Virus record (IMG/VR): IMGVR_UViG_3300045136_000183
Span: 1 to 22,690 of that record
From: a virus
Length of the DNA stretch: 22,690 bases
Reading direction: 5' to 3' (one strand)
Position numbers and translations under genes: made by a program. Shown here in pieces: positions 3,535 to 20,700 of the stretch. The notes under the pieces are model-generated. The model was not told the DNA's origin. It made no database searches and saw only the letters and a program-made list of their open reading frames with translations. Numbering within the stretch: position 1 is the stretch's first letter; every line of letters starts with the position of its first letter.

Positions 3535-4011
3535 TTAGCCGAGGGTCAGGGTGACGGTCCAGTCCCAGCCCGCTACCGCGCCCTGCGGGCCGAGCGGTAC
3601 TGCTGTGCCCCATTGCACGGACCAGCAGTCAGCGAACGGCGGGTCCGCTATCACACCGCCCTCGACGGCGGCTAGGTCGACGAGCAGGCCGTGCGCTGCG
3701 GTGTCCATCGCGGCGACGGTCGGCGGGCCAGCGTCGGTCAACGCCGGGTGGCATCGCACAAGCTGTGCGTGCAACGCGGCGACAAGCTGCGCTTGGCCTC
3801 GGACGATGCGGCCAGCGTCCTGCCGGACGATCGTGGACGCGAGGTGGACGGTCAGCTGATCGGTTTCGCAGAGGTCCCAAGCGGGCGGGCCGTGCGATAC
3901 GAACTGCCTGGATGGCGCTCCGAGCCCGAACGAGCTGAGCGCTGCCGCTACTGCGGCGAGGAGATCGTCGCACGCGTCGGCGAGAAGCTGCGGGTCTGGT
4001 GGGCTGCTCAT
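3535..4011 (-). CDS. Probable tail terminator / head-tail joining protein
   Basis: A 158-residue protein. I chose the ATG at 4011 because it overlaps the stop of the gp10-like gene by 4 bp (ATGA); the frame extends to 4044, but that start would overlap more and adds an unlikely leader. An N-terminal helix (residues 5-30) is followed by mixed strands, and the C-terminus ends in a Gly/Trp-rich strand (AGWDWTVTLTLG) typical of actinophage neck proteins in this slot. In siphoviruses the gene after the gp10-like protein and before the chaperones is normally the tail terminator, a hexamer that caps the tube and docks with the head. The assignment rests on position and overall character rather than on a diagnostic motif. 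Confidence 0.6.
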   Translation of the reverse strand: MSSPPDPQLLADACDDLLAAVAAALSSFGLGAPSRQFVSHGPPAWDLCETDQLTVHLASTIVRQDAGRIVRGQAQLVAALHAQLVRCHPALTDAGPPTVAAMDTAAHGLLVDLAAVEGGVIADPPFADCWSVQWGTAVPLGPQGAVAGWDWTVTLTLG

Positions 4012-4448
4012 CGTTGCGCGACTCGTTCCAACAGGTCCGGCCATTCCGTCATCGTTGACGAGAACCAGCCGTCGTGCTTGTGCGATCCGGGGTGGATCAC
4101 TCGCGCGAGGAACACGACGTCACCCACCTTAGGCCAGTAGAACCGCAGCGCGTCCGGTGGTCTCCCAGGTTCGATGACGTGTGGTTCGGTGCCACGCTCG
4201 GTGTATTCGGCTTGCGGCGCCGTGTACGCGATCGACGCGGAGAACACGCGCCCGTCGAATGGGCGTTCCGTGATGACACGCGACGCTCGCAGCTTCTCCC
4301 CGCTTTCGTTCACGCTGCCCGAGTCGGGGACAACCCGATCGAGTTCGTATCGCAGTTCGGCTAACGCGTCGCCGAACAGCTGCGCGCCGCGGCGAACCAC
4401 TTTGTCGGTGAGTGAGTCGAGGGAAGCCACGTCAGGACCCTGCCCCAT
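4008..4448 (-). CDS. HK97 gp10-like neck / tail completion protein
   Basis: A 146-residue protein of the HK97 gp10 type, which helps join tail to head. The features seen are an N-terminal helix (residues 10-40), then a Tyr-Thr-Glu-Arg-Gly-Thr-x-Pro-His-Val-Ile segment (82-92), an Ala-Leu-Arg-Phe-Tyr-Trp strand (100-105), and a late His-Pro-Gly followed by Gly-Trp-Phe (119-129). This order matches the family signature. The ATG at 4448 gives a 17-bp overlap with the adaptor gene; a GTG at 4430, just after the adaptor stop, is an alternative start. It overlaps the next gene by ATGA, so the neck genes are translationally coupled. Confidence 0.75.
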   Translation of the reverse strand: MGQGPDVASLDSLTDKVVRRGAQLFGDALAELRYELDRVVPDSGSVNESGEKLRASRVITERPFDGRVFSASIAYTAPQAEYTERGTEPHVIEPGRPPDALRFYWPKVGDVVFLARVIHPGSHKHDGWFSSTMTEWPDLLERVAQR

Positions 4449-5271: not shown

Positions 5272-5967
5272 TCACACGCAGCCGCAGGAGAACAAGTCGT
5301 AGGTTTGCTGCCCGACGCCCAGGTTGGCTCCGATCAGCCCCGCGTACCGGAACGCCGGCGCGGCGATGTTGTCCGTGTACCCCCACAGCGTGCCAGCCAC
5401 GACGCACGACAGTCGACCCCCGCCCGTGTGGGGGTCGTAGACGGCGCGTACGACGTCGCCTTTCTGCGGCTGAACACGCGCAGGGTCGAGGACAGCGAAC
5501 GGCGAGCCGGTGAGCCCGCCGAGCCCGTCAGAACCTAACACGATCGGATCGTTCTCGGTCACCCACAACACGCCGAGGATGTTCGCTGACAGGACCGTGT
5601 CGATCGGCGCTATGCGGTCCGACCAGCCGACCCACGCGCCGGCATGATCCGGTCCTTCTCGGTCAGCTGCACCCTCGACGAACAACGCGGACGACGCCGC
5701 GCATCTGCACGCGATCCGATAACCGAACCCACCGATGCTGGTCCGCACGACGGCGGGGAGGTCGTCGGTGTGGTTTGCCACATCCCGGTATGAGCCTGTG
5801 ATCCCCGACGGGGTGCGCCGCCACCCTGACGGCAACTCGATTGTGTGTTCGCCGGTGTCTGCGCGGAGAAGCCGACCAGCTGGGCCGCCGGCGGCGGTCG
5901 TGACTATGGGGGCATGGTCCCGGCACAGGTGCTGCGGTCTGGATCGACACCCGCCGCATCGGGTCAC
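5272..5967 (-). CDS. Unknown Cys-rich structural-region protein
   Basis: A 231-residue protein starting at GTG 5967, which overlaps the tailspike stop by 4 bp (GTGA); the two are therefore probably co-translated. The N-terminus carries Cys4-x2-Cys7 and Cys15 in an Arg-rich context. Further cysteines are a Cys-x-Cys (87, 89), Cys188, and a terminal Ser-Cys-Gly-Cys-Val. The middle is rich in beta-forming segments with Trp and Gly (residues 110-200). I recognise no family. Its position between the tailspike-like gene and the head-tail adaptor suggests a virion component, perhaps a collar or a partner of the tailspike. The N-terminal CxxC-x7-C could bind metal, but a full four-ligand site is not evident. 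Confidence 0.65.
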   Translation of the reverse strand: MTRCGGCRSRPQHLCRDHAPIVTTAAGGPAGRLLRADTGEHTIELPSGWRRTPSGITGSYRDVANHTDDLPAVVRTSIGGFGYRIACRCAASSALFVEGAADREGPDHAGAWVGWSDRIAPIDTVLSANILGVLWVTENDPIVLGSDGLGGLTGSPFAVLDPARVQPQKGDVVRAVYDPHTGGGRLSCVVAGTLWGYTDNIAAPAFRYAGLIGANLGVGQQTYDLFSCGCV

Positions 5968-7901
5968 CGCAGACTCCGTGCTGTTATCTCGACAAGCTGG
6001 ATGTCGCGGGCGACAGCGTTGATCGTCCGGAGGAGAGCTACCGTCCGGAACGCTACGCCTTCACCTGGCAGTCGGCTGGTTGTCGTGCCGGTGTTGATCG
6101 TCCCGGCGGTCCAGTCGATGATCCTCCACCACACCCCTTCGGAACCCGGAAGCACTGCCATCTCAAGGTCGTAGATGTTGCCTGGCGTGAACGGAACCCC
6201 GGTGTCGGCTAGCGCCTCCGCGATGTTGTCTCTCGTAGTGACGTGCCACGTCGTCTGCTGCTTGCCGCCGTTGACGTGGATGCGCTGAAACCCTGCCCGA
6301 TGGCCTGCCGGGTCGTCTGAGCCGACACTGTTCGACGCGGTCTGGTTGGTGACACCGATGAAGATGCGGGAGCCTGTCGACGCGCCCGACTCGTTGTAGC
6401 TCGCGTTCGGGAACCGCAACCCCGCTGCCCGGAACCGCACCCCTGCGCCGACGTTCTGTGACGCCGACCCAGGCATGAACACCTGTGCGGTCGAGCTGGG
6501 GCCGGCGTCCGAGTTCGCGGACGCAGCGGTCCGCCACTGCGACACCCACCCGAGAGTCGTGTCCGAAGCCCCCGACACCGTGCCGTTCGATGTCGTAGAC
6601 GCCCCGATCGTCGATACACCGGTCCCGGTGTTCGCTACGACAGACCACAGGATCGTTCCGCTGCGCTGCGGGGAATCCTCCCATTTCTCGACGTTGCCGA
6701 CGGGGCCGACGATCCCGGAGACGTTCCGCCACTGGTTCGCAGCGATCTGGATGTTGCGGGGCGTAGCGAACGACGGAGCCGACACGATTCTGATAGTGGC
6801 GGGCCCGTCGAGGGCGCCCGAGTCGACCTGGACCTCGTTGCCGAGAACAGCGGCGCCGCCCTGACTCATCCCGGTGATTTTCAGAGCCCCGCATCGCTGC
6901 ACACGGAAACCGCCGCCGGGCGCGTTGCTCAGCGACGCATCAGAGAACACGACCTGACGCGGGTACTGGCCGAGACCGTCCGCTCGCACCACAACGGAGA
7001 ACTGGCCGGCTGGCGCGCTGTTCGTCTTCATACGGGCGACAACCACGTCGGTTAGACGGCCTTCCAGGATCATCAAGGGGTGCGGCTGCGCTGACACGGC
7101 CGCGCCTTTGCCGTGCAACATCAGGTCGTTGATCGTGAGGCGCCGCTGAACCTCCGTGCCGCCAGCCTCGTTGAACACGCGGAACGGGCCGTTGTTGTAC
7201 AAGAACTCGAGCTGCGTCCACGTCAGATGGTTCGTGCCGTCGCCCGCCCCGATCTTGGTGTTGACCGCGGCGACAGGGAACCCCGATGAGTTGTCGCCGC
7301 ACTGCTCGAACCGCAGGTGATGCAGATACGACTCACGCACGAAGTCGTTCGTGCTGCCGCCGGCCGCTGCGAGACTGAGCGCTACACCGCGCATCAGCAT
7401 GAAATAGCAGTCCGAGATGTGGGCGAGGTCGTTGCGGCCGACGAACCAGACGCCATGATGCTCGTCCGCCCAGTTCTCCGCGACGAACGTGAGCCCCTGC
7501 ACGACGCCCGCCACCGTCCAGGACGGGAAGTTGATTGTGGTCGTGTTGACCTGCCCGCTGGGTCCGCGGCGCAGGTCGTCGAACACGATCGCTGGCCCCG
7601 CATAGGACGGGTCGGGGATCAGCTGCGTGGACAGCCACGGACCGCCGACCGCGGCAACCGGGGTGGTCGCGTGGAACAGCAAATCGCGGTAGCGGAGCCG
7701 GGCTCCGGCAGGGAACAGGATCACACCCCGCTCCGCTATCGCGTCTGCTGCCGCCGCCTGGATCGCGTCGGTGGCGTCAACGACGCCGCGGCGGACGTCG
7801 TCCGGGTCGGTACCGGCAGCGACGTAGTCGAGGACAGCGAACACGCCGTTCTGCGCCAGCCACTCCGCCGGGCTGTCCGGTCTGCACGCTGCCGGGATCA
7901 C
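5964..7901 (-). CDS. Tailspike-like protein with beta-helix N-terminal signature
   Basis: A 645-residue protein. Residues 20-66 match the usual opening of pectate-lyase-fold phage spikes: a Val-Leu-Asp-Tyr strand, an Asp-x-Thr-Asp-Ala-Ile-Gln type helix, and an Ile-Leu-Phe-Pro-Ala-Gly strand. Repetitive Asn/Gly-rich strands typical of a right-handed beta-helix follow to about residue 370. From about 400 to 645 there is Thr/Ser/Gly-rich beta structure, with a segment around 590-620 (YDLEMAVLP and a following Trp-Trp) that looks like a jelly-roll binding domain. Such proteins bind and often cleave host surface glycans; no catalytic residues can be assigned here. GTG 7901 has AAGGAGG just upstream. 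The gene lies between the tail tube and head-tail adaptor genes, an odd place for a host-recognition protein, and is coupled to the next gene by GTGA. Confidence 0.8.
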   Translation of the reverse strand: MIPAACRPDSPAEWLAQNGVFAVLDYVAAGTDPDDVRRGVVDATDAIQAAAADAIAERGVILFPAGARLRYRDLLFHATTPVAAVGGPWLSTQLIPDPSYAGPAIVFDDLRRGPSGQVNTTTINFPSWTVAGVVQGLTFVAENWADEHHGVWFVGRNDLAHISDCYFMLMRGVALSLAAAGGSTNDFVRESYLHHLRFEQCGDNSSGFPVAAVNTKIGAGDGTNHLTWTQLEFLYNNGPFRVFNEAGGTEVQRRLTINDLMLHGKGAAVSAQPHPLMILEGRLTDVVVARMKTNSAPAGQFSVVVRADGLGQYPRQVVFSDASLSNAPGGGFRVQRCGALKITGMSQGGAAVLGNEVQVDSGALDGPATIRIVSAPSFATPRNIQIAANQWRNVSGIVGPVGNVEKWEDSPQRSGTILWSVVANTGTGVSTIGASTTSNGTVSGASDTTLGWVSQWRTAASANSDAGPSSTAQVFMPGSASQNVGAGVRFRAAGLRFPNASYNESGASTGSRIFIGVTNQTASNSVGSDDPAGHRAGFQRIHVNGGKQQTTWHVTTRDNIAEALADTGVPFTPGNIYDLEMAVLPGSEGVWWRIIDWTAGTINTGTTTSRLPGEGVAFRTVALLRTINAVARDIQLVEITARSLR

Positions 7902-7930: not shown

Positions 7931-8635
7931 TCAGCTCGACTGTGCCGGCACGGCGATGAAGTCGCACGACGCCTGCGGCAAGTTCGAGTCGAGGAACAGC
8001 CCGCCGACGGAGACGATGCCGCCACCGGCGCTGATGCTCGCCGGCCAGTCCCCGAACGGCCCAGCCGGGGGCATGTTGGCGTTCTCCTCACCGAAGCCGG
8101 TCAGTGAGAAGTCCAGGAAATCGTTCTCCATCGTCATGTCGTCGAGCGAGAACTTGGCGCGTGGGAACACCCAGTGCCAGTAGGCGGCCTGGTTCCCGAG
8201 AGCAGTCGGGGTCGCCTGCTGCGACGAATCCCACGCCTTTGTCCATACTTCGAACGACACGCCGTTCGCGCACGCGTCCGACACGCTGGGAAGCTCCCAG
8301 CCGATCGTGTCACCAGCACCCGGCGACCCGACCTTCGTGAACAGCTGCCCGCCGACGAGCAGCGACGCCACCTGGATGTCGAGTTCGCACAGCGCGACAC
8401 CGAGGTTCGCTCGCTTGATGTGGTCGCAGCCCTTGAACGACTGGCACACCGCACCACAGCCGTTCTTCTTCTCGAGGTCGTCGCCTTCGGACAGCTCGAT
8501 GCCGACGTCTACCGTGATGACAGAGTGCGTGACGTACCCGTTCTCTGGGCCCGCCAGCGGCACTCCGTTCGGCCCCAGGAGCGCCACACGGAGGGCGCAG
8601 ACCTGGAGGGAGCCGTAGCAACTCGGGTCGCTCAT
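7931..8635 (-). CDS. Major tail protein (tail tube)
   Basis: A 234-residue protein resembling actinophage major tail proteins. It opens with an ALRVALL strand and a Gly-Pro/Gly-rich turn (20-31). Then come an acidic 'ELSEGDDLE' segment (47-55), Lys-Asn-Gly-Cys-Gly (57-61), Cys64, and a Cys-Asp-x-x-Lys-Arg motif (70-75). Later parts include VSFEVWTKAW and a WHWVFPRAKF strand followed by an ENDFLDFSLTGFGEEN region, all typical of the tube family. It polymerises into the tail tube around the tape measure. ATG 8635 is preceded by GGAAGGGA at about 9 bases. Four well-spaced cysteines in the N-terminal half are shared by homologs I know. It is separated from the chaperones and tape measure by six genes. 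Confidence 0.85.
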   Translation of the reverse strand: MSDPSCYGSLQVCALRVALLGPNGVPLAGPENGYVTHSVITVDVGIELSEGDDLEKKNGCGAVCQSFKGCDHIKRANLGVALCELDIQVASLLVGGQLFTKVGSPGAGDTIGWELPSVSDACANGVSFEVWTKAWDSSQQATPTALGNQAAYWHWVFPRAKFSLDDMTMENDFLDFSLTGFGEENANMPPAGPFGDWPASISAGGGIVSVGGLFLDSNLPQASCDFIAVPAQSS

Positions 8636-8665: not shown

Positions 8666-8693
8666 TGGTTAGCTGGGTCTAGATGGTTAGCTG
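8666..8693 (-). promoter_or_regulatory. Leader element before the tail tube gene: repeat and near-operator
   Basis: The plus-strand decamer TGGTTAGCTG occurs twice (8666-8675 and 8684-8693), one start 18 bases from the next. Between and across them lies TAGCTGGGTCTA (8670-8681). On the coding strand this is TAGACCCAGCTA, matching 10 of 12 positions of the TAGCCRCRGCTA motif found at three other gene junctions. The following hexamer is TAACCA, a poor -10. Part of the second decamer includes the stop codon of the upstream gene. Confidence 0.4.
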
Positions 8694-9574
8694 CCGGTTG
8701 GTTCGCAGCACGGCGAACAGAGGTCGATTTCTGCTGCGGCGTGAGCGCATCCGTCCCAGAACGCCGCGACGGTTCGTTCGGCGCGCATCGTGACGGTGTT
8801 CGTGGCACGGTCAAGGGCCTCGCCGATGGTGTCCGGTGTTAACACGATCTCGTCTTCGAGGACATGAACGAGCCCTGTAGCGTACGCCCACTGCCGGTCA
8901 CCGGACAACGGGGCGGGGGTGCCGCCAGGCCCGGAGCCGTCGTAGCCGGTGCCGGGAACGACGATGTTGTCCATGACGTCAAGAAGGACTGTGCCTTCGC
9001 GGCGGATCACCCCTGCGGACAACCAGAGCGTCGCTGTCCGCACGGTGCAATGGATCATCCCTCGACCAGGGATCGTGTCCGCCAGGTACTGCTGGAGCGC
9101 TGCGAGCCCGTAGACGAGCGGGAACACGCCGAGATCGACAGCCGACGCAGCGTCAGCGAGATACGCGTTAGGGAGGTTCGCGGCGATCGCAGCGGTCCCC
9201 GACCACAGTTCCGCTTCCATCTTGCGCGACTGCTGAGCGATCAGCGCCCGACGCGCCCGCGCCTGATAGTCCGCGACCGTGTAGCCGAGCGCCGAGCAGG
9301 TGTCGTGCGTCACGATCGTCACAGGCCGATACCGCACCAGTCCCGGGCGGACGCTTTCCGCTTGTTTCGGGTCTGGGGGTGAGCCGCCTTCCCCTTCTGG
9401 GCACGACCACCAGATCGGGTCGTCGTCTAGGCACGCCTCGGGGGCGAACTCGATGCCGTTCACCCATCGCGGGTCGACGCCTGTCGGACGGACAGCAGAT
9501 GAGAGGAGGCCGAGACGAGGCGGCGTCGCTTGCGGCGCGTCGACGGGGACGTGAGCGTTCGTCGCGCCTGCCAC
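8687..9574 (-). CDS. Capsid-associated structural protein (possible HK97-fold relative)
   Basis: A 295-residue protein that follows the major capsid gene. GTG 9574 has AAGGAGG at 7 bases, a strong start. The layout recalls capsid or encapsulin-like shells: a helix with Ala-Asp-Tyr-Gln-Ala-Arg-Ala-Arg-Arg and Glu-Leu-Trp (101-124), a Leu-Pro-Asn-x-Tyr-Leu-Ala segment (134-140), an RGMIHCT strand (171-177), then VVPGTGY (205-211), AYATGLVHVLED (230-241), and a final ATNTVTMRAERTVAAF strand pair (257-272). The N-terminal 80 residues are Pro/Gly-rich and look extended. Six cysteines include a terminal Cys-x2-CysCys. I have seen similar genes next to actinophage capsid genes but know no proven function; a second shell, vertex or decoration protein is inferred. 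Confidence 0.65.
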   Translation of the reverse strand: MAGATNAHVPVDAPQATPPRLGLLSSAVRPTGVDPRWVNGIEFAPEACLDDDPIWWSCPEGEGGSPPDPKQAESVRPGLVRYRPVTIVTHDTCSALGYTVADYQARARRALIAQQSRKMEAELWSGTAAIAANLPNAYLADAASAVDLGVFPLVYGLAALQQYLADTIPGRGMIHCTVRTATLWLSAGVIRREGTVLLDVMDNIVVPGTGYDGSGPGGTPAPLSGDRQWAYATGLVHVLEDEIVLTPDTIGEALDRATNTVTMRAERTVAAFWDGCAHAAAEIDLCSPCCEPTGS

Positions 9575-9617: not shown

Positions 9618-11369
9618 TCAGCTACCGCACGACACGGCGCCGTCGACGCCGGCGGCGTAGCTGCCGTCAGCGACGACGTTCTGCGTCACCCACAGCGCCT
9701 CGGGGCCCCGCCGTGCCACGATACCCTCGAACGTCTCCGCGAACGTCTCGAAGTCGTTCGTGCTGTTCAGGGTGGAGTCGCGGATGACGCCAAGGTCGAG
9801 CGTGCCGCCGTCGAGGAAACCGAAGTGGCCTTCCGCGAACAGCGCCCACTGGATCTGGCACGGCCAGGCTGCGAGCGTGCCGCCGTTCGTCTGCCTCGGC
9901 AGCAGCTGCGACGTCCCGGTCGACGGCGAGTCGACGTAGAACGTCGGGGTGACACCGGCGTCGGACAGCATCTGGATGATCTCGGATCGGGCGGTCACCA
10001 GGTCGGTGCGTCCCTCCCCGGAGCGGATCAAGTCCGCTTGCATGAGGTCGATGATCCACGCGGGTCCGAGCCAACGCAGCCGGACGTCGCCGGTCCGTTC
10101 AGATGACCGCCGGGCGGCGGCAGCGCGGATGACCGACTCGAGGATGTCGCGTGCGGCCCCGAACGTCTGCCCGTCCGTCACCTGAGTCGTGCCGGCGTCG
10201 TTCTTGATGGCGTCGAGAAGCAACGTCTCCGCGAGCCTGGCGTGGGCGGCCTGAGCGAGCCCGCTCCACTGCGCGACGTTCTCCGGGAAAGCACGCTGAC
10301 CGAGGTTCCCGAACCGCAGCCGCTTCGTCACGGCGTAGGCGCGGAACTCAGCGAACTCGGGGCAGTCGATCACCTGGACCGGCTTGGTCGCCTCGTTGAT
10401 GTCCTCGGTGTTCGTGTGCTGCCCGACAGCTGCGTCAGCGCCGGTCGTGTCGATCGACGACAGAGTCGGCGACACAGGGAGACGCACCCCGCCACGATCA
10501 GCCCCGAAGTCGGGGAGCGCGTCACGGACCGGCCGCGACGCCTGCGCTTCCAGCACGAGCGAGTAGTCGACAGCCGAGGGGGCGCACCAGCCTCCTGACG
10601 CGACCACTGCGTCGGTCCACGCGTCCGGGTTGTTGGCTGCGGCCACTACGGCGTCGAACCGATCGGCGCTCAGCCGCGGGTCGAGGCCGAGGCGGCGGTG
10701 CTCCGGGTAGTCGCCGACCACGGACAGGAGCACTCGCTTACCTGCGTTGCTGCCCAGCTCGTGGAACCGGCTCGCCATGTGCTCGTAGCCTTCGCGGATC
10801 GTTGACACCGGACGGCCGGTGTCGGTGGAGAGATGCAGGTTCGACGGACGGTGGCTGTCGGCGGGCTTGGTCCTCCGAGGTCGGGTCCGGATCATGCCGC
10901 TGCGGGCGACGATCTCCGAGATGGACGGCGTAGCAGCAGCGACGACAGCTTCGGGCTGCTCCTGCTCCTGCTCCTCGGTCTTCTCGTCGGACTCGTCAGC
11001 GTTCTCAGGCTGCTGCCCCGCAGCCTGCACCGGCTCCTCGTCGGGCTCGCTGACATTCTCAGCTTCCTCACCGTCGCTTGACTCGGGTTCGGCGTCGTCG
11101 TCGCCGTGGACGGATCGGGCAAGCTCAGCGATCTCGTCGTTGCGTTGCTGCGCCTCAGCGATGCGGACAGCGGCCAACGCACGCAGGTTCTCGACGGCCT
11201 GAGCGATCGCACGCAGCACTTCGACGTCGTCGGCGGCGTAATGCTCGCTCTCCCCGGCGCGGATCGCGTCGAAGTGGCGCAGCAGCTCGGCCTCCAGCTC
11301 GCCGACTCGCTCATCGGTGAGATCGGAGGCGTCCTCGGCCTCCTGTAGCAGTTCCTGGATGGGGTCCAC
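9618..11369 (-). CDS. Major capsid protein with fused N-terminal scaffold (delta) domain
   Basis: A 583-residue HK97-type capsid protein. Residues 1-88 are predicted helical coiled coil. Residues 89-141 are a low-complexity Glu/Asp/Gln/Pro/Ser linker, visible in the DNA as a run of CTC-CTG triplets. The capsid domain starts near 185-200. A Gly-Gly-Trp-Cys-Ala-Pro-Ser motif (259-265), a following RPVRDALPDFGADRGGVRLP region, a central NVAQWSGLAQAAHARLAE helix, and a late QWALFAEGHFGFLDGG strand fit actinophage capsid proteins. The N-terminal part probably acts as a built-in scaffold cleaved by the upstream-encoded protease near residues 155-190; no separate scaffold gene is present. GTG 11369 has AAGGAG at about 6 bases. 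It has a 172-bp leader, suggesting independent expression. Confidence 0.88.
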   Translation of the reverse strand: MDPIQELLQEAEDASDLTDERVGELEAELLRHFDAIRAGESEHYAADDVEVLRAIAQAVENLRALAAVRIAEAQQRNDEIAELARSVHGDDDAEPESSDGEEAENVSEPDEEPVQAAGQQPENADESDEKTEEQEQEQPEAVVAAATPSISEIVARSGMIRTRPRRTKPADSHRPSNLHLSTDTGRPVSTIREGYEHMASRFHELGSNAGKRVLLSVVGDYPEHRRLGLDPRLSADRFDAVVAAANNPDAWTDAVVASGGWCAPSAVDYSLVLEAQASRPVRDALPDFGADRGGVRLPVSPTLSSIDTTGADAAVGQHTNTEDINEATKPVQVIDCPEFAEFRAYAVTKRLRFGNLGQRAFPENVAQWSGLAQAAHARLAETLLLDAIKNDAGTTQVTDGQTFGAARDILESVIRAAAARRSSERTGDVRLRWLGPAWIIDLMQADLIRSGEGRTDLVTARSEIIQMLSDAGVTPTFYVDSPSTGTSQLLPRQTNGGTLAAWPCQIQWALFAEGHFGFLDGGTLDLGVIRDSTLNSTNDFETFAETFEGIVARRGPEALWVTQNVVADGSYAAGVDGAVSCGS

Positions 11370-13395: not shown

Positions 13396-15846
13396 CTACT
13401 GCTGCTCGCGGAGATCGACGAAGCGGGGAACAGCGTCGCACTGGCAGCCGTCGTGGTCGCCAGGGAACAGGAACTGGGTGTCGGGAAACGCGGCGCTGTT
13501 AGCGAGCGCCGGGTCGTCCCACGTGTCGAACTGAACGCCGTCGAGGGACTCGTGCAGCGGGAACGGCGTCTGCCGTGTCGACGCGTCGCCGTAATCCCAG
13601 ATGTAGCCGGCGATCTCTAGGCCGATCTCACGCGCGAAATCCGCGACGGTCTGGCCGGTAGCGAGCTGCCCGGCGATCCGCTCGTCGGGGCCCCGGAACG
13701 CTCCGCCTCGGGTCGGCTCACCACGAGCGCCACCAGCCACCGAAAGGGCTTGCCGCATCACGCCAGCCGGCACCGACATGTCCGGGTCGTGCTCACCGAT
13801 CGGCGGTGCGGACGGGCGCGGGTCGAACAGGCGACTTGATGCGAGCCCGACGAGCAATGCGAGCAGCAGTTCCGCGCCCCGCTCACGACCCTCTGCTTGC
13901 GCTCGCTCCATGCGCTCGACCTGCTCGTCGTCGAGGCCAAGCTCGGCGAGTTCGCTGCGGGTCTGCCGCTGCGCCCTGCCGACCTGAGCCCGGAACCTAG
14001 CGACAATCTCGTCGAACTCGCTTTCGATTAGTGTCGCGGGGTCTGCGTCGATCGCGGCGGTGACCGCTGCGGGCCCGATGAGCGACGCGACTTCACGGTT
14101 GGGGTGTCCGTCGATGATGTCCCGCCACGGCGAATGCTTCGCCGCGCCTAGCCTTGAACGCAGCCGCGCCCCAGCACGGTCAAGCGCGCGTGTCATCGCC
14201 GCGTCTGCCGCGACGAGCAGCCTGGAGCGGAGCTGCCGGTCTCGGTCGGCCCAACGGCGGCCGAGCTGCGCGACCCGGTCCGTGCCGCGTGACACTGCCG
14301 CCGCCGCTGTGAGCGCATCCTCAGTCGCGGGTTCGTCGCCGGTTCCGCCCGATTCGCTAGGGGCAGAGCCTCCAGGCGCAGTAGCGGCACTACCGAGGCG
14401 TTCCGCGCGTTCCTCCGGTGTTGGTGCTTCCGCTTCCGAGTAGCCGATCCTGCGGCGTCCTGCGGCGTCGCTGATGAGACCCAGCTCCACAGCCCTGAAC
14501 GCGTTAGCGCTCTCGTCGGGGTCGGCGACGAGATCAGACGCGTCGTAGGCGACGACGATGCGTGCAACCACATCCGGCGGGACGTTCGCTGCGGCGAGCG
14601 CCGGCCGCAGGTAGCCGGTCGTGATCGCCTCGACGAACTGGTCGGCGTCGGGCTGCACGTAGTCGCGGAACTGCGAGTCGGTGATCAGCCACGCCGACCA
14701 GTGGTTCGCGTCTCCGAGCTGCCCCGTCAGCACCTCTTTGGGGAGGTCGACGCCGTTCGCGATGCGATCAATGAGCGCTCTGATCCGGTTGTCTACTGCG
14801 TCGTCGAATGGACGCCCGAACGTGAGGTGTCGGAAGCGGTCGATGTCTTCGGGGTCGGCTGAGATGATGATGGGCGCCGCAGCGGACGCAGACCGCGGAT
14901 TGCCGATAGGGGTGATGATGTGCTGTAGCAGGTCGTCGAGTGTCACGGACCGCTGCGCCTCGCCGTCCGTTCCGTCCGAGTCTGGGAGCCGCCCCCCATG
15001 CACGGTCGCGCCGCGTGGGACAAGCAGCACACCGTTGTTCATCCGCGACATGGCCGCGCCGAGGCTTTCCTGTTGCAGCGTCACGAGATGCTCGCAGTGG
15101 TCAAGTACCCCTGCGACCGGTGAGTCCGCCATCGCGGAATAGCGGGCGTGCTGATACCACACGCGGACGACAAGCGAAGTGGCAGGGTCGAGACGCACAG
15201 CGTCCTCGACGCTCGCTCCGGGATCAGGCTGGTATTCCCATCGGCCGTCCCCTGACACACGCAGCTCGTCAATCGACGCAAACGCGAATCTGTCCCGTTC
15301 CGCCTCAGAAGCAGACGGGTCCTGCCAGCCGACGAGGTAGCCCTCCCCGACCACGAAGCCGTTCTGCCCCCATCGCTCGAGCATCGTGCGGTGGGCGTCG
15401 CGTCCGCCGCCAAGCCTGCGGAGAAGCGTGTCGGCGATCTCAGCAATCTCGGGTGCGACAACCGGACGTTCGTCGATCTCCGTTGTCAGCGGAACAGCCT
15501 CGTGTTCCCCTGGGAGAATGATCGCGGGGAAAAGCCGCAGCTTGCTGAGCGCTCTGCCTTTGAACCGCGCGGCCTGCTTGATCTCGCTCAGGACGTCGTA
15601 GTAGAGCCATGCGTCGTCCTGCCATCCGCCTCGCTGCGACCCTTGCCGCCGTTTCATCAGTGTCGCTTCCCGCTGAGACGCCAGGTCGATGGTCTTGGCG
15701 GCTGCGAGAAGCCCGGCGGGCCCTTCGCGGCGGCGCCGTTCACGCAGCCCCTGAAGTCGGCCCTCCATTCGTCCGAGACGGTACGCGCGATCCGGTATCG
15801 GTTCCGGGGCCGTCAGGATGGGCGACAGGTCGTCAGTCACCGTCAC
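13396..15846 (-). CDS. Portal protein fused to a MuF-like C-terminal domain
   Basis: An 816-residue protein from GTG 15846, chosen because it overlaps the upstream stop as GTGA; the frame runs open to 15987 but that extension lies inside the DUF1360-like gene. The portal part (about 60-480) has the actinophage signatures DLPKEVLTG (367-375) and NHWSAWLITDSQF (381-393), the latter close to an Asn-His-Trp-Ser-Ala-Trp motif common in this family. An Ala/Ser/Gly/Glu linker (484-515) leads to helices and a C-terminal domain (about 715-816) with LHESLDGVQF (764-773) and Asp-His-Asp-Gly-Cys-Gln-Cys-Asp-Ala-Val-Pro (797-807), the closing motif of Mu gpF-like head morphogenesis proteins. The portal forms the packaging and ejection ring; the MuF part faces the capsid interior. 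No separate MuF gene is seen nearby. The fusion makes it about twice normal portal length. Confidence 0.88.
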   Translation of the reverse strand: MTVTDDLSPILTAPEPIPDRAYRLGRMEGRLQGLRERRRREGPAGLLAAAKTIDLASQREATLMKRRQGSQRGGWQDDAWLYYDVLSEIKQAARFKGRALSKLRLFPAIILPGEHEAVPLTTEIDERPVVAPEIAEIADTLLRRLGGGRDAHRTMLERWGQNGFVVGEGYLVGWQDPSASEAERDRFAFASIDELRVSGDGRWEYQPDPGASVEDAVRLDPATSLVVRVWYQHARYSAMADSPVAGVLDHCEHLVTLQQESLGAAMSRMNNGVLLVPRGATVHGGRLPDSDGTDGEAQRSVTLDDLLQHIITPIGNPRSASAAAPIIISADPEDIDRFRHLTFGRPFDDAVDNRIRALIDRIANGVDLPKEVLTGQLGDANHWSAWLITDSQFRDYVQPDADQFVEAITTGYLRPALAAANVPPDVVARIVVAYDASDLVADPDESANAFRAVELGLISDAAGRRRIGYSEAEAPTPEERAERLGSAATAPGGSAPSESGGTGDEPATEDALTAAAAVSRGTDRVAQLGRRWADRDRQLRSRLLVAADAAMTRALDRAGARLRSRLGAAKHSPWRDIIDGHPNREVASLIGPAAVTAAIDADPATLIESEFDEIVARFRAQVGRAQRQTRSELAELGLDDEQVERMERAQAEGRERGAELLLALLVGLASSRLFDPRPSAPPIGEHDPDMSVPAGVMRQALSVAGGARGEPTRGGAFRGPDERIAGQLATGQTVADFAREIGLEIAGYIWDYGDASTRQTPFPLHESLDGVQFDTWDDPALANSAAFPDTQFLFPGDHDGCQCDAVPRFVDLREQQ

Positions 15847-16133
15847 GACCCAGAATCGTAGCGGAGCGACCCGAGCAGCCCCGCGATAGCGGACAACGCG
15901 AGCGTCGCGGCGACCGGACGCCACATGCGCGGCGCGCACGTCCGCGCGCACACAACCCCTGCGGAAACCCACATCCCTGCGCACCAATAGCAGGACAGCA
16001 GGTCCGCGGCGAAGTCGCTGGCGCTGCTGCCGCCGATCCGTTCCGCTGTCGTGAGGGTAAGGGAACGGGCCTTGTCGGTGATTGTGTCGTCGACGACCAG
16101 GCGGGTGAGCCGGAACGCCGCGAGCCCATCCAC
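15843..16133 (-). CDS. DUF1360-like small membrane protein
   Basis: A 96-residue protein from GTG 16133; the frame extends to 16304, but the upstream part overlaps the transferase gene and looks out of frame with coding. It opens with Gly-Leu-Ala-Ala-Phe-Arg-Leu-Thr-Arg-Leu (3-12), then Val-Asp-Asp-Thr-Ile-Thr-Asp-Lys-Ala-Arg, a Leu-Ser-Cys-Tyr-Trp-Cys-Ala-Gly-Met-Trp motif entering a membrane helix (about 47-62), and a second membrane helix near the end. This order matches the DUF1360 family known from bacteria and actinophages; its function is unknown. It has no strong ribosome site and overlaps the portal by GTGA. Its place beside two transferases may mean it works at the membrane with them. 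Confidence 0.7.
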   Translation of the reverse strand: MDGLAAFRLTRLVVDDTITDKARSLTLTTAERIGGSSASDFAADLLSCYWCAGMWVSAGVVCARTCAPRMWRPVAATLALSAIAGLLGSLRYDSGS

Positions 16134-16158
16134 GACTAGAGCTGCGAGCTGATCTCTG

Positions 16159-17166
16159 TCAGTCGTAGAACGCACGCATCGCCTCCACAGCCCGAACAGC
16201 TGCGCCTCCGTCAAGCGGACCGTACAGCAGGCTGGCGACCTCGGCTCGTCTCGCCGCCCACACGTCGCCTGCGAGCGCGGCGTCGATCGTGGCGGCCAGC
16301 TCACCCGGGTCGTTTACCTGCGGGCCCACGTCAGCGTACTGCCAGAAGCGGAGGCCGTGGTTCACGTCCCGTCGGTATCGCCGCGAGTTGACTACGACGA
16401 CTGGGATGTCGAGGGCGACGGCTTCCCACATCGCCGACGTGTTGTCCGCGACCAGCAGACGGGCTCGGGCTAACGCCTCTCGGAGTTCTCGGACGGGTTC
16501 GATGCCAGCGGCACGGTAATACGCCTCGTAGTGGCTCCACGCTCTCGGATGGCCGTGGCCGAGCATAAGCCAGCGACGCTCAGACGCGAGCGCCGCAACA
16601 GCGTCGGCGTACTCGGCGTGCGCTGACCCGGCCTCAGGGACAGACGCAGCGACCGGTGGGTGCCAATGCCAAGCGAACACGACAGCGTCCGATTCGCCAC
16701 GCGAGTAGGTGTCGAGCTTCGGGCATCCGACTGCTACCGCCATAGCGTCCGGGTACACGGCGGCGTTGCGGTCCGCTACGACCCGGTTCGGGCAGACGAA
16801 CACGTCGACGCGGTGGCGGTCGCGACCACCGGCGTGATACGGGAGTGAGGCGGCGGTTCCTCCGTCGCCGCCGTAGTGCTGGCCGGCGCCGTGCTCGACG
16901 AGCACAGCTCGCCGATGCGGGCCCAACGCAACGAGATCGGAGTACGACGCGACAAGCCACGGGGGTTGCCGGCCATCGACAAGTGACCGGCGGGCGGGGA
17001 GCTGCGCACGGTGCAGCATCACCGGGACGCCTCGTCGGCCAAGCCATTCCCACGCGTCCCGAGACGCCGCGACGAACATGCCGCGCTCTGACGGGTCGAG
17101 AGCCTGCCAGATCGGTAGCAGATGCTCGGCGTAATGGCGGTGCGACGCGAGCGCGTGGATCAGCAC
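16159..17166 (-). CDS. GT-B / CDP-glycerol glycerophosphotransferase-like transferase
   Basis: A 335-residue protein with GT-B features. Glu-His-Gly-Ala-Gly-Gln (91-96) follows a strand (AVLV), Leu-Gly-His-Gly-His-Pro (202-207) ends a central strand, and Ala-Asp-Asn-Thr-Ser-Ala-Met-Trp-Glu-Ala (240-249) precedes a strand, IPVVVVN. These three positions correspond to the histidines and the Asp-x-Ser/Thr-Ser...Glu segment of the CDP-glycerol glycerophosphotransferase (TagB/TagF-like) family and related glycosyltransferases. The substrate could be a nucleotide sugar or CDP-polyol. GTG 17166 overlaps the GT4 gene by 7 bp. No signal peptide is visible, so the enzyme is probably cytoplasmic. Its likely targets are virion proteins or a host surface polymer; sequence cannot decide. 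Confidence 0.7.
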   Translation of the reverse strand: MLIHALASHRHYAEHLLPIWQALDPSERGMFVAASRDAWEWLGRRGVPVMLHRAQLPARRSLVDGRQPPWLVASYSDLVALGPHRRAVLVEHGAGQHYGGDGGTAASLPYHAGGRDRHRVDVFVCPNRVVADRNAAVYPDAMAVAVGCPKLDTYSRGESDAVVFAWHWHPPVAASVPEAGSAHAEYADAVAALASERRWLMLGHGHPRAWSHYEAYYRAAGIEPVRELREALARARLLVADNTSAMWEAVALDIPVVVVNSRRYRRDVNHGLRFWQYADVGPQVNDPGELAATIDAALAGDVWAARRAEVASLLYGPLDGGAAVRAVEAMRAFYD

Positions 17167-18119
17167 AGCGACCCCAGCCGTTCAGCGAGGTCGGCGAGCT
17201 GATCTCGGGACTCCGCTTCGAGCGCGACAGCCCGCGCGTGGGCTCGGGTGGCGGCCTCGCCCCATGCGTCGTCGTCGTTGAGGAGTCGACGCAGGAGCCG
17301 TTCCCATTCGTCGATGTCGTCGTGCGCGGCGAAACCCGCGGGGACACCTGTCTCACGGAGCCCTGGTGTGGGTGCTGCGAGCGTCGGGACGCGTGCTGCT
17401 GCGGCCTCGACTGCTACGCGCCCCCACGATTCGTAGTGGGACGGCATCAGCACGACCCGCGCCTGGGCGTACAGCGCTGCGACATCCGGAGTGTTCTCGA
17501 CGACCGACACGTTCGACAGCCCGGGGGGAGGCTCAGTCTGCGCGGCGTAGGCGCCACGCACCCCAACGAACCGGGTCGTCGGGAACCGAGCGGCTAAAGC
17601 GTAGAAGGTCCGTGCGCCCTTCGCTGCGGCGAGGTTCAGGAGGAGCACAGCGTCGTGCGGTCCGGGCGCAGGCCGGTAGTCAGCGACCCACACCGGCGGG
17701 TGCAGCACCATCGACGGGCCATCCCATTCGACAGTCTCAGCGATCCATCGCGAGTTGAAGCAGACGAGATGCGCCTCCTCTCGGGTTACGCGATGGTACG
17801 CGAGCTGACGGTCGTTGTGGACGAGATGCACGAGGGGTCGCCGCTCACGCTGAGCACACGCGATTGCCTGTCTGGTCGCGTCGAGATGCGTGACGATCAC
17901 GTCAGCGTCACGGTACAGGCTGCGGGCCCGTCGAGGGTCCCGGATCATCGACACCCGCACCCCCTGGAACGTGTCGTGGCGGCGAGGCGGGCGGTTCGTG
18001 ATCACGCTGACATCAGCGTCGTATTCGGCTCGGAGATGCCGGAGCGTCGAATGCAACGCCCATTCCGCGCCAGCGTTATGAGATGGCGGGTACAGATGGA
18101 CGTGCGCGAGAACCCTCAC
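17160..18119 (-). CDS. Glycosyltransferase, GT4-like
   Basis: A 319-residue GT-B glycosyltransferase. The N-terminal half has a first strand, VLAHVHLYPPS, with a Gly-Ala-Glu (17-19) loop typical of GT4 donors and acceptors. A linker VLHPPVWV (138-145) leads to the C-terminal half. There a Tyr-Glu-Ser-Trp-Gly-Arg segment carries the Glu-x7-Glu pair (Glu230, Glu238) followed by AARVPTLAAPTPGLRE. The Glu-x7-Glu motif binds the nucleotide sugar. The start is GTG 18119, overlapping the stop of the tiny membrane peptide by 4 bp. Placed in the head operon between methyltransferase and portal, it may decorate virion proteins; phage-encoded glycosyltransferases that do this are known in mycobacteriophages. 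Modification of the host surface is the alternative. Confidence 0.85.
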   Translation of the reverse strand: MRVLAHVHLYPPSHNAGAEWALHSTLRHLRAEYDADVSVITNRPPRRHDTFQGVRVSMIRDPRRARSLYRDADVIVTHLDATRQAIACAQRERRPLVHLVHNDRQLAYHRVTREEAHLVCFNSRWIAETVEWDGPSMVLHPPVWVADYRPAPGPHDAVLLLNLAAAKGARTFYALAARFPTTRFVGVRGAYAAQTEPPPGLSNVSVVENTPDVAALYAQARVVLMPSHYESWGRVAVEAAAARVPTLAAPTPGLRETGVPAGFAAHDDIDEWERLLRRLLNDDDAWGEAATRAHARAVALEAESRDQLADLAERLGSLC

Positions 18120-18196
18120 CTGTCAAGCCTCCACCTGAGGATCTCCGCTACCCCGACAGCGACGCCTACTATGACGACGCCGACCAGAAGCCCCAC
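18116..18196 (-). CDS. Tiny single-pass membrane peptide
   Basis: This is a 26-residue peptide from GTG 18196 with GAGGGA about 8 bases upstream; a TTG at 18214 would give 32 residues. A Gly/Val/Ile run (residues 2-17) is long enough for one membrane helix and is followed by a charged end, EILRWRLDR, so it is probably N-out, C-in. Its stop overlaps the GT4 start as GTGA, and it fills the 103-bp gap after the methyltransferase. The frame continues far upstream inside the methyltransferase gene, so a real gene is supported mainly by the hydrophobic run, the ribosome site and the coupling. Confidence 0.5.
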   Translation of the reverse strand: MGLLVGVVIVGVAVGVAEILRWRLDR

Positions 18197-18222
18197 GGCT
18201 GCGTCCCTCGCCAAGCCAGCGG

Positions 18223-18891
18223 TCAGCGGTCCGGCTTGCAGAGGACGTGGATCGCGGCGTGGTTCGGGCCGACCGCGTCGAACGAGAACACGCCGGGGTT
18301 CGCTTCGGCTCGCTCGACAATCAGACCCGCGGATTCTGCCGCGGCGCAGAGCCCGCCGACCGTCCAGACTGTCACGTCGGTCCAATGTTCCCCCTCCCTC
18401 GGCTCGTCGTAGAGCGGGATGTGGAGGAGCATCACCCCGCCAGGTCGCAGCAGCCCCGCCCATTCCCGCACCATCTCCTGCCCGTTCGCGACCGACTGGT
18501 GGATCAGGACAGCGACCGCGAACACCACGCTCGCTCGCAGCTTCGGGAGCGGGCCTGCCGGGTCGATCAGCACGCCGTCTACCTCAGGGTAGTTGTCGGC
18601 GAGATGGCGCAGCATCGTCGGGGATGTGTCGAGGCCAGTCACCTTCCAGCCGAGGCGTGCTAGCGGGCCGGCGATGCGGCCGTCGCCGACCCCGACCTCG
18701 ATGACGTCGCGTCGGCGCCCCTTCGGCAGCCACGCCGCTGCGAGGTCCGAGAGATGCGCGGCGAGCGTCTCGCCCGATGCGCGGTACGCGGCGAGGTCCG
18801 AGCCGAGCGGATGGATAGCGGCTCGATAGTCGACGCGGCGGGCCGCCTCCTCCCAAGCGTCAGCTACGGCCGTCGCGTGGCGTTCGTCCAT
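18223..18891 (-). CDS. Class I SAM-dependent methyltransferase
   Basis: A 222-residue enzyme with the Rossmann methyltransferase order: motif I Val-Ile-Glu-Val-Gly-Val-Gly-Asp-Gly-Arg (63-72), an acidic end of strand 2 in Val-Thr-Gly-Leu-Asp (84-88), a strand 4 region AVAVLIHQS (125-133), and Leu-Leu-Arg-Pro-Gly-Gly before a strand (147-156). The target is not readable: there is no DNA-type Asn-Pro-Pro-Tyr motif, so it is more like UbiE/sugar or small-molecule/protein O- or N-methyltransferases. ATG 18891 is preceded by GGGGAGAG. It is the first gene of the block followed by two transferases, so a likely role is methylating a sugar or the same acceptor. It could act in the same decoration pathway. 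Confidence 0.85.
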   Translation of the reverse strand: MDERHATAVADAWEEAARRVDYRAAIHPLGSDLAAYRASGETLAAHLSDLAAAWLPKGRRRDVIEVGVGDGRIAGPLARLGWKVTGLDTSPTMLRHLADNYPEVDGVLIDPAGPLPKLRASVVFAVAVLIHQSVANGQEMVREWAGLLRPGGVMLLHIPLYDEPREGEHWTDVTVWTVGGLCAAAESAGLIVERAEANPGVFSFDAVGPNHAAIHVLCKPDR

Positions 18892-18910
18892 AATCTCTCC
18901 CCTTTCGGTC

Positions 18911-19156
18911 TTAGCTGCGGCAGCCGCAGACCCGCTCGGCTTTCGCTACCGCCCCGTCGGGGTCGGCGAGGTAAAGGAGCACTACCCCGCGAGACGGCCG
19001 CTCCACGCCGGACAGCTGCGCCTCCCACACGCGTTGGCCTCTACTGTCCAGCGCGTACGCCTCGCTGTCGCTGTAGACGACACGCACCCGCTCGATGCGG
19101 GAGCCGTCCGGGAGGTCCAGCGTCGCTCTCGTGATCATCGCAGTCATGACACGCAT
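18911..19156 (-). CDS. Small beta-rich protein of unknown function
   Basis: An 81-residue protein. Starts are possible at ATG 19156, 19147 and 19138; none has a ribosome site. ATG 19147 lies 7 bases after a TACGAT hexamer, so leaderless translation from there (78 residues) is attractive. The sequence alternates strands: TRATLDLPDGSRI, ERVRVVYSDSEAYAL, GVVLLYLA. It ends in Val-Cys-Gly-Cys-Arg-Ser. This looks like a small beta-barrel or sandwich. The gene begins 11 bp after the terminase stop and may be coupled to it. No family is recognised. Confidence 0.65.
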   Translation of the reverse strand: MRVMTAMITRATLDLPDGSRIERVRVVYSDSEAYALDSRGQRVWEAQLSGVERPSRGVVLLYLADPDGAVAKAERVCGCRS

Positions 19157-19170
19157 CGTAGCTGCGGCTA
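19155..19170 (-). promoter_or_regulatory. Motif TAGCTGCGGCTA with -10-like TACGAT
   Basis: On the coding strand TAGCCGCAGCTA (19170-19159) matches the motif at 11805 and 22576. It includes the terminase stop codon TAG (19170-19168). Its final TA opens TACGAT (19160-19155), four of six to the -10 consensus, and TGGCTA at a 17-base spacing is a weak -35. A transcript would begin close to the ATG at 19147. Confidence 0.45.
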
Positions 19171-20700
19171 GAGGCCGTAGCCACGACCACTGCGACTACG
19201 CCCTGGGATGAGCCCCGCAGCCTGCACCGGCGCACGGGGGACGACAGCCTGGCGGCGCTGCGAGCCGGGTCGAGGCAGGCTCGGCGCGGCAGCCGGGCGA
19301 GCCACGACAGTAGCTGGGCCCGCCTCTCGCAGCACTTGGAACGCACCTGCTACCGCGTCCACCTGGTCGTCGTGCGGGCCGTCCGGGAACTCCTCCGCCT
19401 CGTCAAGGAACGCCTCGACCCACTGGGCGTCATCAGGGATCGTGACCCGACCCTGCTCCGCAGCGGTCGCCAACAGCTCGGCGCGCACAGTCTTCGGGCC
19501 AGTAACCGGGTTGCCTTTCACGGCGGCGATGCCGTCCAGCTCGCGTCCGATCATCATGAGCTGTGCCTTGCCGGCGTTGCCTGGCTCCTTCTCGATCCAG
19601 ACGACTGGGAGGCCGTCAGCTTTCGCGACAGCCCGGATGCGGGTCTCCCTAGCCCCGGGAGGGAGCCGGAACCGTTCGATGTGCTCGACGCGGTAAAGGC
19701 GCCTCTCGGGCTCGAACGCGACGAGAGCGCCTACCGTCCAGTCCGGGTCGGGGTTCGCCTCGCTCTCCTCCCCCGACGCCAGATCCCAGTAGCGGACCCT
19801 GCGGACCGCCGCGTCGCGAGGCCATTCGGGTGCGCCCCTGCGGAACCATCCACGTGCGAACAGCACGCCGACCCCTTCGAGAAGCTCGGCGTCCAGTTCC
19901 TGGCGGCCAAGCCTCGTCCCCTCATAGCGTGCGACAACGACCGCCCGGAACAGGTCCGACAGGTTCGCGAGGTTGTCGCGGGTTCTGCCGACCGTCTCGA
20001 TGAGACCGGGGAGGGAACGAATATCGCGGATCAGCCGGACGTTCCTGGGTGTGCCGGTCACCAGTAACCGGTTCCAGGGAGGGAGCCGCAACCCCAGCAG
20101 CAGGTTCGAGAACGCGGTGTCGTCGTCCATGCCTCGGTGCGCGTCAGGGAGCGTCGCCGGTTCGTCGATCCACGCGCCGTGATGCTGCGGGCCCCGCAAC
20201 GCCGACGGAGTGCGACCGGAGAAGCCACGCACCTGATGTCCGCCGTCGAGTGTCAACGTAAGCTCCGAACGGTTGAACGACCTGTCCCACGACCCACCTA
20301 CGAGCATGGACGGAGGGAGAACCGCGGCTAGACCCGACTCGCCTTCGAGCTGGATGGACAGCACGTCCTCACGGCGAGGAGCCAGAAGCGCCCACCGGAC
20401 AGGGTCCGACGTCTGCGCCGCCAGCTCACGGATCGACTCTTTCGTCGCCTCCGCGCCTGTGCGTGTCTTACCCCAGCCGCGCCCCGCCCGGATCAGCCAC
20501 ACCAGCCAGTCGTGCCCCTCGGGGAGAAGCTGCTCAGGTCTCGCGACCACAGACCAGTCGCGTGCCATCAGCGCCGCCAGCTCGTCCGGGGTCAGCTCAG
20601 CGATCCACGCCGCCCGCTCCTCGTCCGACAGGAGAGCTAGCTCGTCCTCGATCGACAGCCCCGGAGGCCGCCACCCCGAGTCGTCCTCGACGCGTGTCAC
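19168..20700 (-). CDS. terL: Terminase large subunit (ATPase and nuclease)
   Basis: A 510-residue DNA packaging motor. The ATPase half shows Walker A Arg-Ala-Gly-Arg-Gly-Trp-Gly-Lys-Thr-Arg-Thr (71-81), Walker B Gly-Ala-Trp-Ile-Asp-Glu (175-180) and the coupling motif Val-Thr-Gly-Thr-Pro-Arg (214-219). The RNase H-like nuclease half shows Arg-Tyr-Trp-Asp-Leu-Ala (303-308, Asp306), Trp-Ile-Glu-Lys-Glu-Pro-Gly (368-374, Glu370), and Gly-Pro-His-Asp-Asp-Gln-Val-Asp-Ala (441-449), giving three acidic metal ligands. It docks on the portal, pumps DNA into the prohead and cuts it. GTG 20700 overlaps the small-subunit stop as GTGA. The C-terminal 50 residues are Arg/Ala/Pro-rich and probably disordered. 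Confidence 0.97.
   Translation of the reverse strand: MTRVEDDSGWRPPGLSIEDELALLSDEERAAWIAELTPDELAALMARDWSVVARPEQLLPEGHDWLVWLIRAGRGWGKTRTGAEATKESIRELAAQTSDPVRWALLAPRREDVLSIQLEGESGLAAVLPPSMLVGGSWDRSFNRSELTLTLDGGHQVRGFSGRTPSALRGPQHHGAWIDEPATLPDAHRGMDDDTAFSNLLLGLRLPPWNRLLVTGTPRNVRLIRDIRSLPGLIETVGRTRDNLANLSDLFRAVVVARYEGTRLGRQELDAELLEGVGVLFARGWFRRGAPEWPRDAAVRRVRYWDLASGEESEANPDPDWTVGALVAFEPERRLYRVEHIERFRLPPGARETRIRAVAKADGLPVVWIEKEPGNAGKAQLMMIGRELDGIAAVKGNPVTGPKTVRAELLATAAEQGRVTIPDDAQWVEAFLDEAEEFPDGPHDDQVDAVAGAFQVLREAGPATVVARPAAAPSLPRPGSQRRQAVVPRAPVQAAGLIPGRSRSGRGYGL

Follow-up and report, generated by a model that had tools for sequence, protein, structure and literature searches.

Why should a phage encode sugar-transfer enzymes among its genes for DNA packaging and head assembly? 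This question is raised by the window analyzed here, a virus record of 22,690 bases (IMG/VR IMGVR_UViG_3300045136_000183), which is evidently a fragment. On its minus strand the genes follow in the order small terminase, large terminase, an 81-amino-acid protein, a methyltransferase (MT), a hydrophobic peptide, a glycosyltransferase of family GT4, a second GT-B enzyme (16159-17166, hereafter GTB), a DUF1360 protein, portal, a protease-related structural protein and major head protein. A preliminary description had listed five tightly coupled genes between terminase and portal. Their minus-strand coordinates were confirmed, while the 81-amino-acid gene (19156-18911), missing from that list, lies in the same interval. 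Judging from sequence comparisons, MT, GT4 and GTB probably form a virion-decoration cassette that is made together with the late structural proteins and whose product would be a glycosyl/polyol-phosphate (or sugar-phosphate) unit.

Association with capsid genes

Virion decoration is likely because GT4 and GTB genes are both concentrated around the major capsid gene, in line with the purpose first suggested for the cassette. A total of 72 GT4 loci was counted. A major capsid gene was recognizable upstream in 53, and the GT4 gene starts at most 150 bp from it in 38 of them. The same applies to GTB in 19 of the 39 loci with a recognized capsid gene. In relatives (other loci and contigs compared with the window are denoted by L-numbers), the immediate neighbors of GTB include members of the prohead protease/capsid, portal, adaptor, glycosyltransferase and methyltransferase families. 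In the window itself, the terminase subunits lie upstream of the cassette and the portal (phrog_776) downstream. Intergenic gaps range from -9 to +25 nucleotides, except for 103 nucleotides between MT and GT4 that are occupied by the membrane peptide, and consensus scans of positions 15500-19500 detected neither a promoter-like nor a terminator-like site. Owing to these near-zero gaps and the lack of such sites, the cassette genes look like part of a late operon. Since their reading frames are kept in relatives at 40-73% identity, we regard the genes as real.

In the proposed pathway, GT4 would put a sugar on a structural protein or extend a sugar already there, the best candidate acceptor being the major head protein. 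The TagF-like GTB would add a nucleotide-activated polyol-phosphate (CDP-glycerol-like) or sugar-phosphate group, and MT may cap or tune the product. We infer the modification of the virion as well as donor, acceptor and order of steps.

The GT4 enzyme

The GT4 glycosyltransferase (319 amino acids, 17160..18119, minus strand) matches PF13692 (1.2e-13) and phrog_26352 (1.8e-70), a family with no function assigned. Its AlphaFold2 model has a predicted local distance difference test (pLDDT) score of 95.5, with MshA, BshA and PimA as closest folds, and the E-x7-E motif (E230, E238) is invariant in all 68 aligned rows. By this motif, the Pfam GT4 domain and the GT-B fold, the protein belongs to the retaining GT4 enzymes, so the initial assignment based on Glu-x7-Glu and the structural check proposed for 17160-18119 agree.

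A pattern scan revealed GT4 relatives in at least 110 viral contigs, and relatives of GTB are encoded by at least 125. The GT4 profile matched one of 397 bacterial genomes, all from the phylum of a metagenome-assembled genome holding a GTB relative, and this match adjoins a head-tail adaptor gene. GTB was found at two loci among 84,980 species genomes by pattern and in one of the 397 bacterial genomes by profile. As judged from this distribution of sequences, GT4 and GTB are phage-specific families. At least two GT4-family genes occur in 30 loci, L030, L063 and L047 among them, the listed copies being about 0.7 kb apart. Directly upstream of GT4, towards the capsid gene, L054, L055, L056, L057, L062 and L072 encode members of one protein cluster, whose tested representative (L057) is an FkbM-type methyltransferase.

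A TagF-like transferase and its partners

GTB (335 amino acids, 16159..17166, minus strand) itself stays below every Pfam, PHROG and NCBIfam cut-off and yields no match to the PF04464 model at E-values up to 1. Its relatives exceed the PF04464 cut-off of 22.1, with 34 bits in L044 and 52.8 bits in L167. In hhalign, the GTB family aligned to cellular PF04464 (Glyphos_transf) members with 98.2% (E-value 6e-14, 310 columns), and its profile retrieved Cps3D (6e-4), TarL and TagF from the PDB, with significance for Cps3D alone. It is the combination of relatives above the cut-off, PDB profile matches and hhalign that places GTB in the TagF superfamily. On these alignments the family is homologous to TagF-like CDP-glycerol phosphotransferases, and transfer of a CDP-polyol (or sugar-phosphate) is a plausible predicted activity. 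H91 and H205 of GTB are invariant in all 72 aligned rows and align with the HGTPLK and RLHY-type histidines of cellular PF04464 members; in TagF the catalytic histidines are H444 and H584 (PMC5974469). The early reading of 17166-16159 as a TagB/F-like enzyme with CDP-glycerol-transferase-like histidines is thereby upheld. The N-terminal membrane-associating region of TagF polymerases is not present in the 335 residues of GTB, which contain no hydrophobic segment, and hydropathy analysis indicated no membrane segment in either GT4 or GTB.

Two peculiarities were noted in L009. The GTB frame (L009:7959-9329) is divided into two conserved halves by an insertion of some 120 codons that contains a tRNA-Met gene (8562-8635), and an adjoining open reading frame of 686 amino acids (L009:5615-7675) resembles, by eye, an intein-interrupted glycosyltransferase.

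The two transferase genes lie side by side in L006, L036 and the lineage of the window; L044 and L090 also contain both. In L013 they are joined to one fused protein of 825 amino acids, encoded between major head protein and head-tail adaptor. Ten other distinct GTB loci encode a C-terminal GT-A-like domain with a YIDAD/YVDAD motif, whose PF03407 match is just under the cut-off. Furthermore, a TagD-like cytidylyltransferase gene overlaps or lies near GTB in 6 of 50 GTB contigs, compared to 0 of 50 GT4-only contigs (Fisher two-sided p = 0.027). The TagD-like protein has HxGH, GDDW and PRTxGxST-type motifs. Its best full-length match among solved structures is glycerol-3-phosphate cytidylyltransferase, and both the glycerol-3-phosphate and the heptose-1-phosphate models of NCBIfam remain under their cut-offs, so that either compound is a candidate substrate.

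For the window phage, polyol-phosphate chemistry is plausible from the sequence relationships of GTB. A more far-reaching and rather tentative idea is that tailed phages possess a self-contained teichoic-acid-like pathway in which a TagD-like enzyme activates, a TagF-like enzyme transfers polyol-phosphate and a glycosyltransferase adds sugar, some of these parts being fused in certain phages. On the capsid itself, this pathway would assemble a glycosyl-polyol-phosphate group or a short polymer. If so, these virions would wear a negatively charged coat resembling a wall polymer.

Two further loci are worth mentioning. Behind the major head gene of L044, a glycosylation operon (L044:7992-14734) encodes GT4, other glycosyltransferases, an FkbM methyltransferase and GTB. 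It also contains a gene for a Vsr/DUF559-like protein that bears a NUMOD3 motif and may be a homing endonuclease. In Streptomyces phage Comrade (L210), gp77-gp79 include TagD-like nucleotidyltransferases adjoining glycosyltransferases, and similar arrangements occur in many Streptomyces phages. These TagD-like proteins are annotated as bifunctional heptose kinase/adenylyltransferase, an annotation that is doubtful because of their size and their match to TagD-like proteins.

The methyltransferase

MT (222 amino acids, 18223..18891, minus strand) is a class I S-adenosylmethionine-dependent methyltransferase, as already recognized in the preliminary description, since it contains a Pfam domain (PF08241, 4.5e-12; PF13649, 3.4e-11) and the glycine-rich motif EVGVGDGR. 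It is probably an accessory enzyme of the cassette.

Weighing the alternatives

Several observations weigh against the proposed decoration by MT, GT4 and GTB. In the window the cassette is located between terminase and portal, away from the capsid gene, and the counts of capsid adjacency overstate independence because the phages are related. In the close relative L005, about 73 internal residues of MT (3542-4039) are deleted in frame; barring an assembly error, MT is therefore dispensable there. The AlphaFold2 model of GTB (pLDDT 94.4) is ambiguous by fold alone, its top matches being TagF (template modelling (TM) score 0.62-0.64) and non-hydrolyzing 2-epimerases (TM score 0.63-0.65). Of the two checks suggested earlier for this protein, profile comparison gives a TagF-like enzyme, whereas the fold search does not separate TagF from 2-epimerases. 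Moreover, in a tree of 72 GTBs the TagD-bearing and the GT-A-fused members form two separate groups with the window in neither, and a TagD gene was searched for but not found in the contigs of the closest relatives of the window, L003 and L005.

The strongest competitor, only somewhat less probable than an even chance, shares the virion as target. Here, GTB would be an ordinary transferase of nucleotide-diphosphate sugars and the product a plain oligosaccharide that lacks phosphate and may be methylated. The missing direct PF04464 match of the window protein, the first rank of sugar-nucleotide enzymes in the fold search and the lack of a detectable TagD in the window lineage are all in its favor. 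However, the profile-profile homology to PF04464, the invariance of both TagF-type histidines and the TagD-like gene that overlaps or neighbors GTB in a sister clade speak against this reading.

An unlikely alternative is that the cassette blocks superinfection by altering teichoic acid or glycolipid of the host envelope in infected or lysogenic cells. Wall or capsule polymers are the normal targets of TagF-like enzymes, and the one-helix peptide and DUF1360, a borderline membrane protein, are encoded alongside. Yet neither a flippase nor a lipid primase was recognized among the genes scanned in this fragment, no promoter of its own was found, both transferases are devoid of membrane segments, and the relatives are located in a late operon beside capsid and neck genes. 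The envelope-directed or lipid-linked pathway initially considered has little in its favor.

Glycosylation of phage DNA as protection from restriction is improbable. Some viruses are known to encode glycosyltransferases for DNA hypermodification (Pyle 2024, cited in PMC12619734), and the cassette follows a terminase gene in the window. On the other hand, no base-hypermodification gene was recognized in the window, which is only a fragment, and in relatives the transferase genes are grouped with those for capsid and neck. To our knowledge, there is no precedent for TagF-like transferases acting on DNA.

Finally, a role of GTB as a UDP-GlcNAc 2-epimerase-like enzyme (PF02350) that makes the donor sugar instead of transferring it is highly improbable despite the top fold matches to such epimerases, as hhalign gave 4.0% (E-value 0.011) versus the values for PF04464 given above, the Pfam Epimerase_2 match (0.11) is far under the cut-off and the sequence of GTB has no GTRPE-type start.

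Comparison with known systems

By analogy, the decoration cassette most likely resembles the glycosyltransferase/TagF-like pairs of teichoic-acid-like capsule synthesis in its working and the Che8 glycosyltransferases in its purpose. Profile comparison places GTB in the same superfamily as TagF, TagB, TarL and the TagF-like capsule polymerases Cps1B, Cps3D and Cps7D (PMC5974469). Two conserved histidines, a D-x-S-S-type motif and the pairing or fusion with a GT-A or GT-B sugar transferase are common to GTB and the PF04464/Cps enzymes, while a TagD-like activation gene, as in PF04464 systems, accompanies one GTB clade only. In contrast to the Cps/TagF enzymes, GTB is phage-encoded, has about 335 residues without N-terminal membrane-binding region and is located in head operons. 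The fusion order is also reversed compared to the capsule polymerases, with GT4 before the TagF-like domain and the TagF-like domain before GT-A.

The glycosyltransferases of Che8 and Corndog decorate the capsid (PMC12363180). Like our cassette, Che8 gp108-gp110 and Corndog gp38 combine phage-encoded glycosyltransferases with a methyltransferase domain; in Che8 gp108 this domain is joined to a GT2 domain. The Che8 enzymes, however, are GT2- and GT25-like and encoded near the genome end, whereas the window cassette resides in the head operon, and a TagF-like enzyme is found in the latter but not among the Che8/Corndog enzymes. No homology to the Che8 enzymes was detected: the hhalign probability of GT4 against gp108 is 1.1, and gp108-gp110 are of the GT2/GT25 type.

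Another counterpart is gp20 of Streptomyces phage TurkishDelight, a tandem GT4 of the window family with both halves in one protein (37% and 32% identical to the window GT4) that lies between the major capsid and major tail genes. TurkishDelight and the window also share portal, head protein and DUF1360, but a search of phage records did not find GTB in TurkishDelight. Among annotated phage records, Virus Rctr41k (KX853513) alone contains a relative of GTB. Its gene 32, annotated as hypothetical protein, is located two genes after the capsid/protease gene (36% identity over 91%), and no GT4 of the window family was detected in this record. Gtr-type serotype-conversion genes (flippase, membrane-bound glycosyltransferase) were not recognized among the scanned proteins of the window, itself a fragment.

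As far as the accessible literature goes, virion glycosylation is proven for few mycobacteriophages only. Our literature searches, whose coverage of subscription literature is incomplete, brought up no account of virions being decorated by a TagF-like enzyme. Our findings point to a capsid-linked cassette that is widespread in environmental phages, and to the GTB family, a branch of the teichoic-acid synthase superfamily for which neither Pfam nor PHROGs has a dedicated model. Were the capsid to carry polyol-phosphate, this would be a new virion chemistry, relevant to the charge and stability of the particles, to their adsorption to Gram-positive envelopes and to the way therapeutic phages are recognized by the immune system. 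Because TurkishDelight is cultured, the GT4 part is open to testing now.

Neighboring genes

The preliminary description mentioned two membrane proteins next to the enzymes. This holds for the one-helix hydrophobic peptide (about 32 amino acids, about 18116..18214, minus strand, TTG start likely) with a hydropathy of 2.7 over 19 residues; it was seen in the window lineage only, conserved at 88% in L004 and 62% in L005. For the DUF1360 protein (about 96 amino acids, about 15843..16133, minus strand; PF07098, 2.2e-14; phrog_781), the best 19-residue hydropathy of 1.55 is merely borderline. This protein adjoins the portal gene and had been counted as a member of the pathway. In TurkishDelight, DUF1360 stays beside the portal without adjacent GT4, the GT4 homolog being about 10 kb away; for this reason we dropped it, and it is probably a portal neighbor outside the decoration pathway. 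A search with the 96-residue sequence against phage records gave no match at an E-value of 1e-3.

The 81-amino-acid protein of unknown function (18911..19156, minus strand) between large terminase and MT is conserved in L004 and L005 and has no Pfam or PHROG family match. The major head protein (9618..11369, minus strand) matches phrog_777 (8.2e-64). It is followed by a phrog_779 protein of unknown function, both in the window (8687-9574) and in TurkishDelight (gp18, L215:5318-6166), where it is annotated as membrane protein. L167, L168 and TurkishDelight make an actinobacterial host plausible. Between the tail and adaptor genes of the window, positions 5964-7901 encode a protein of 645 amino acids without PHROG family, the N-terminus of which resembles, by eye, pectate-lyase/tailspike proteins.

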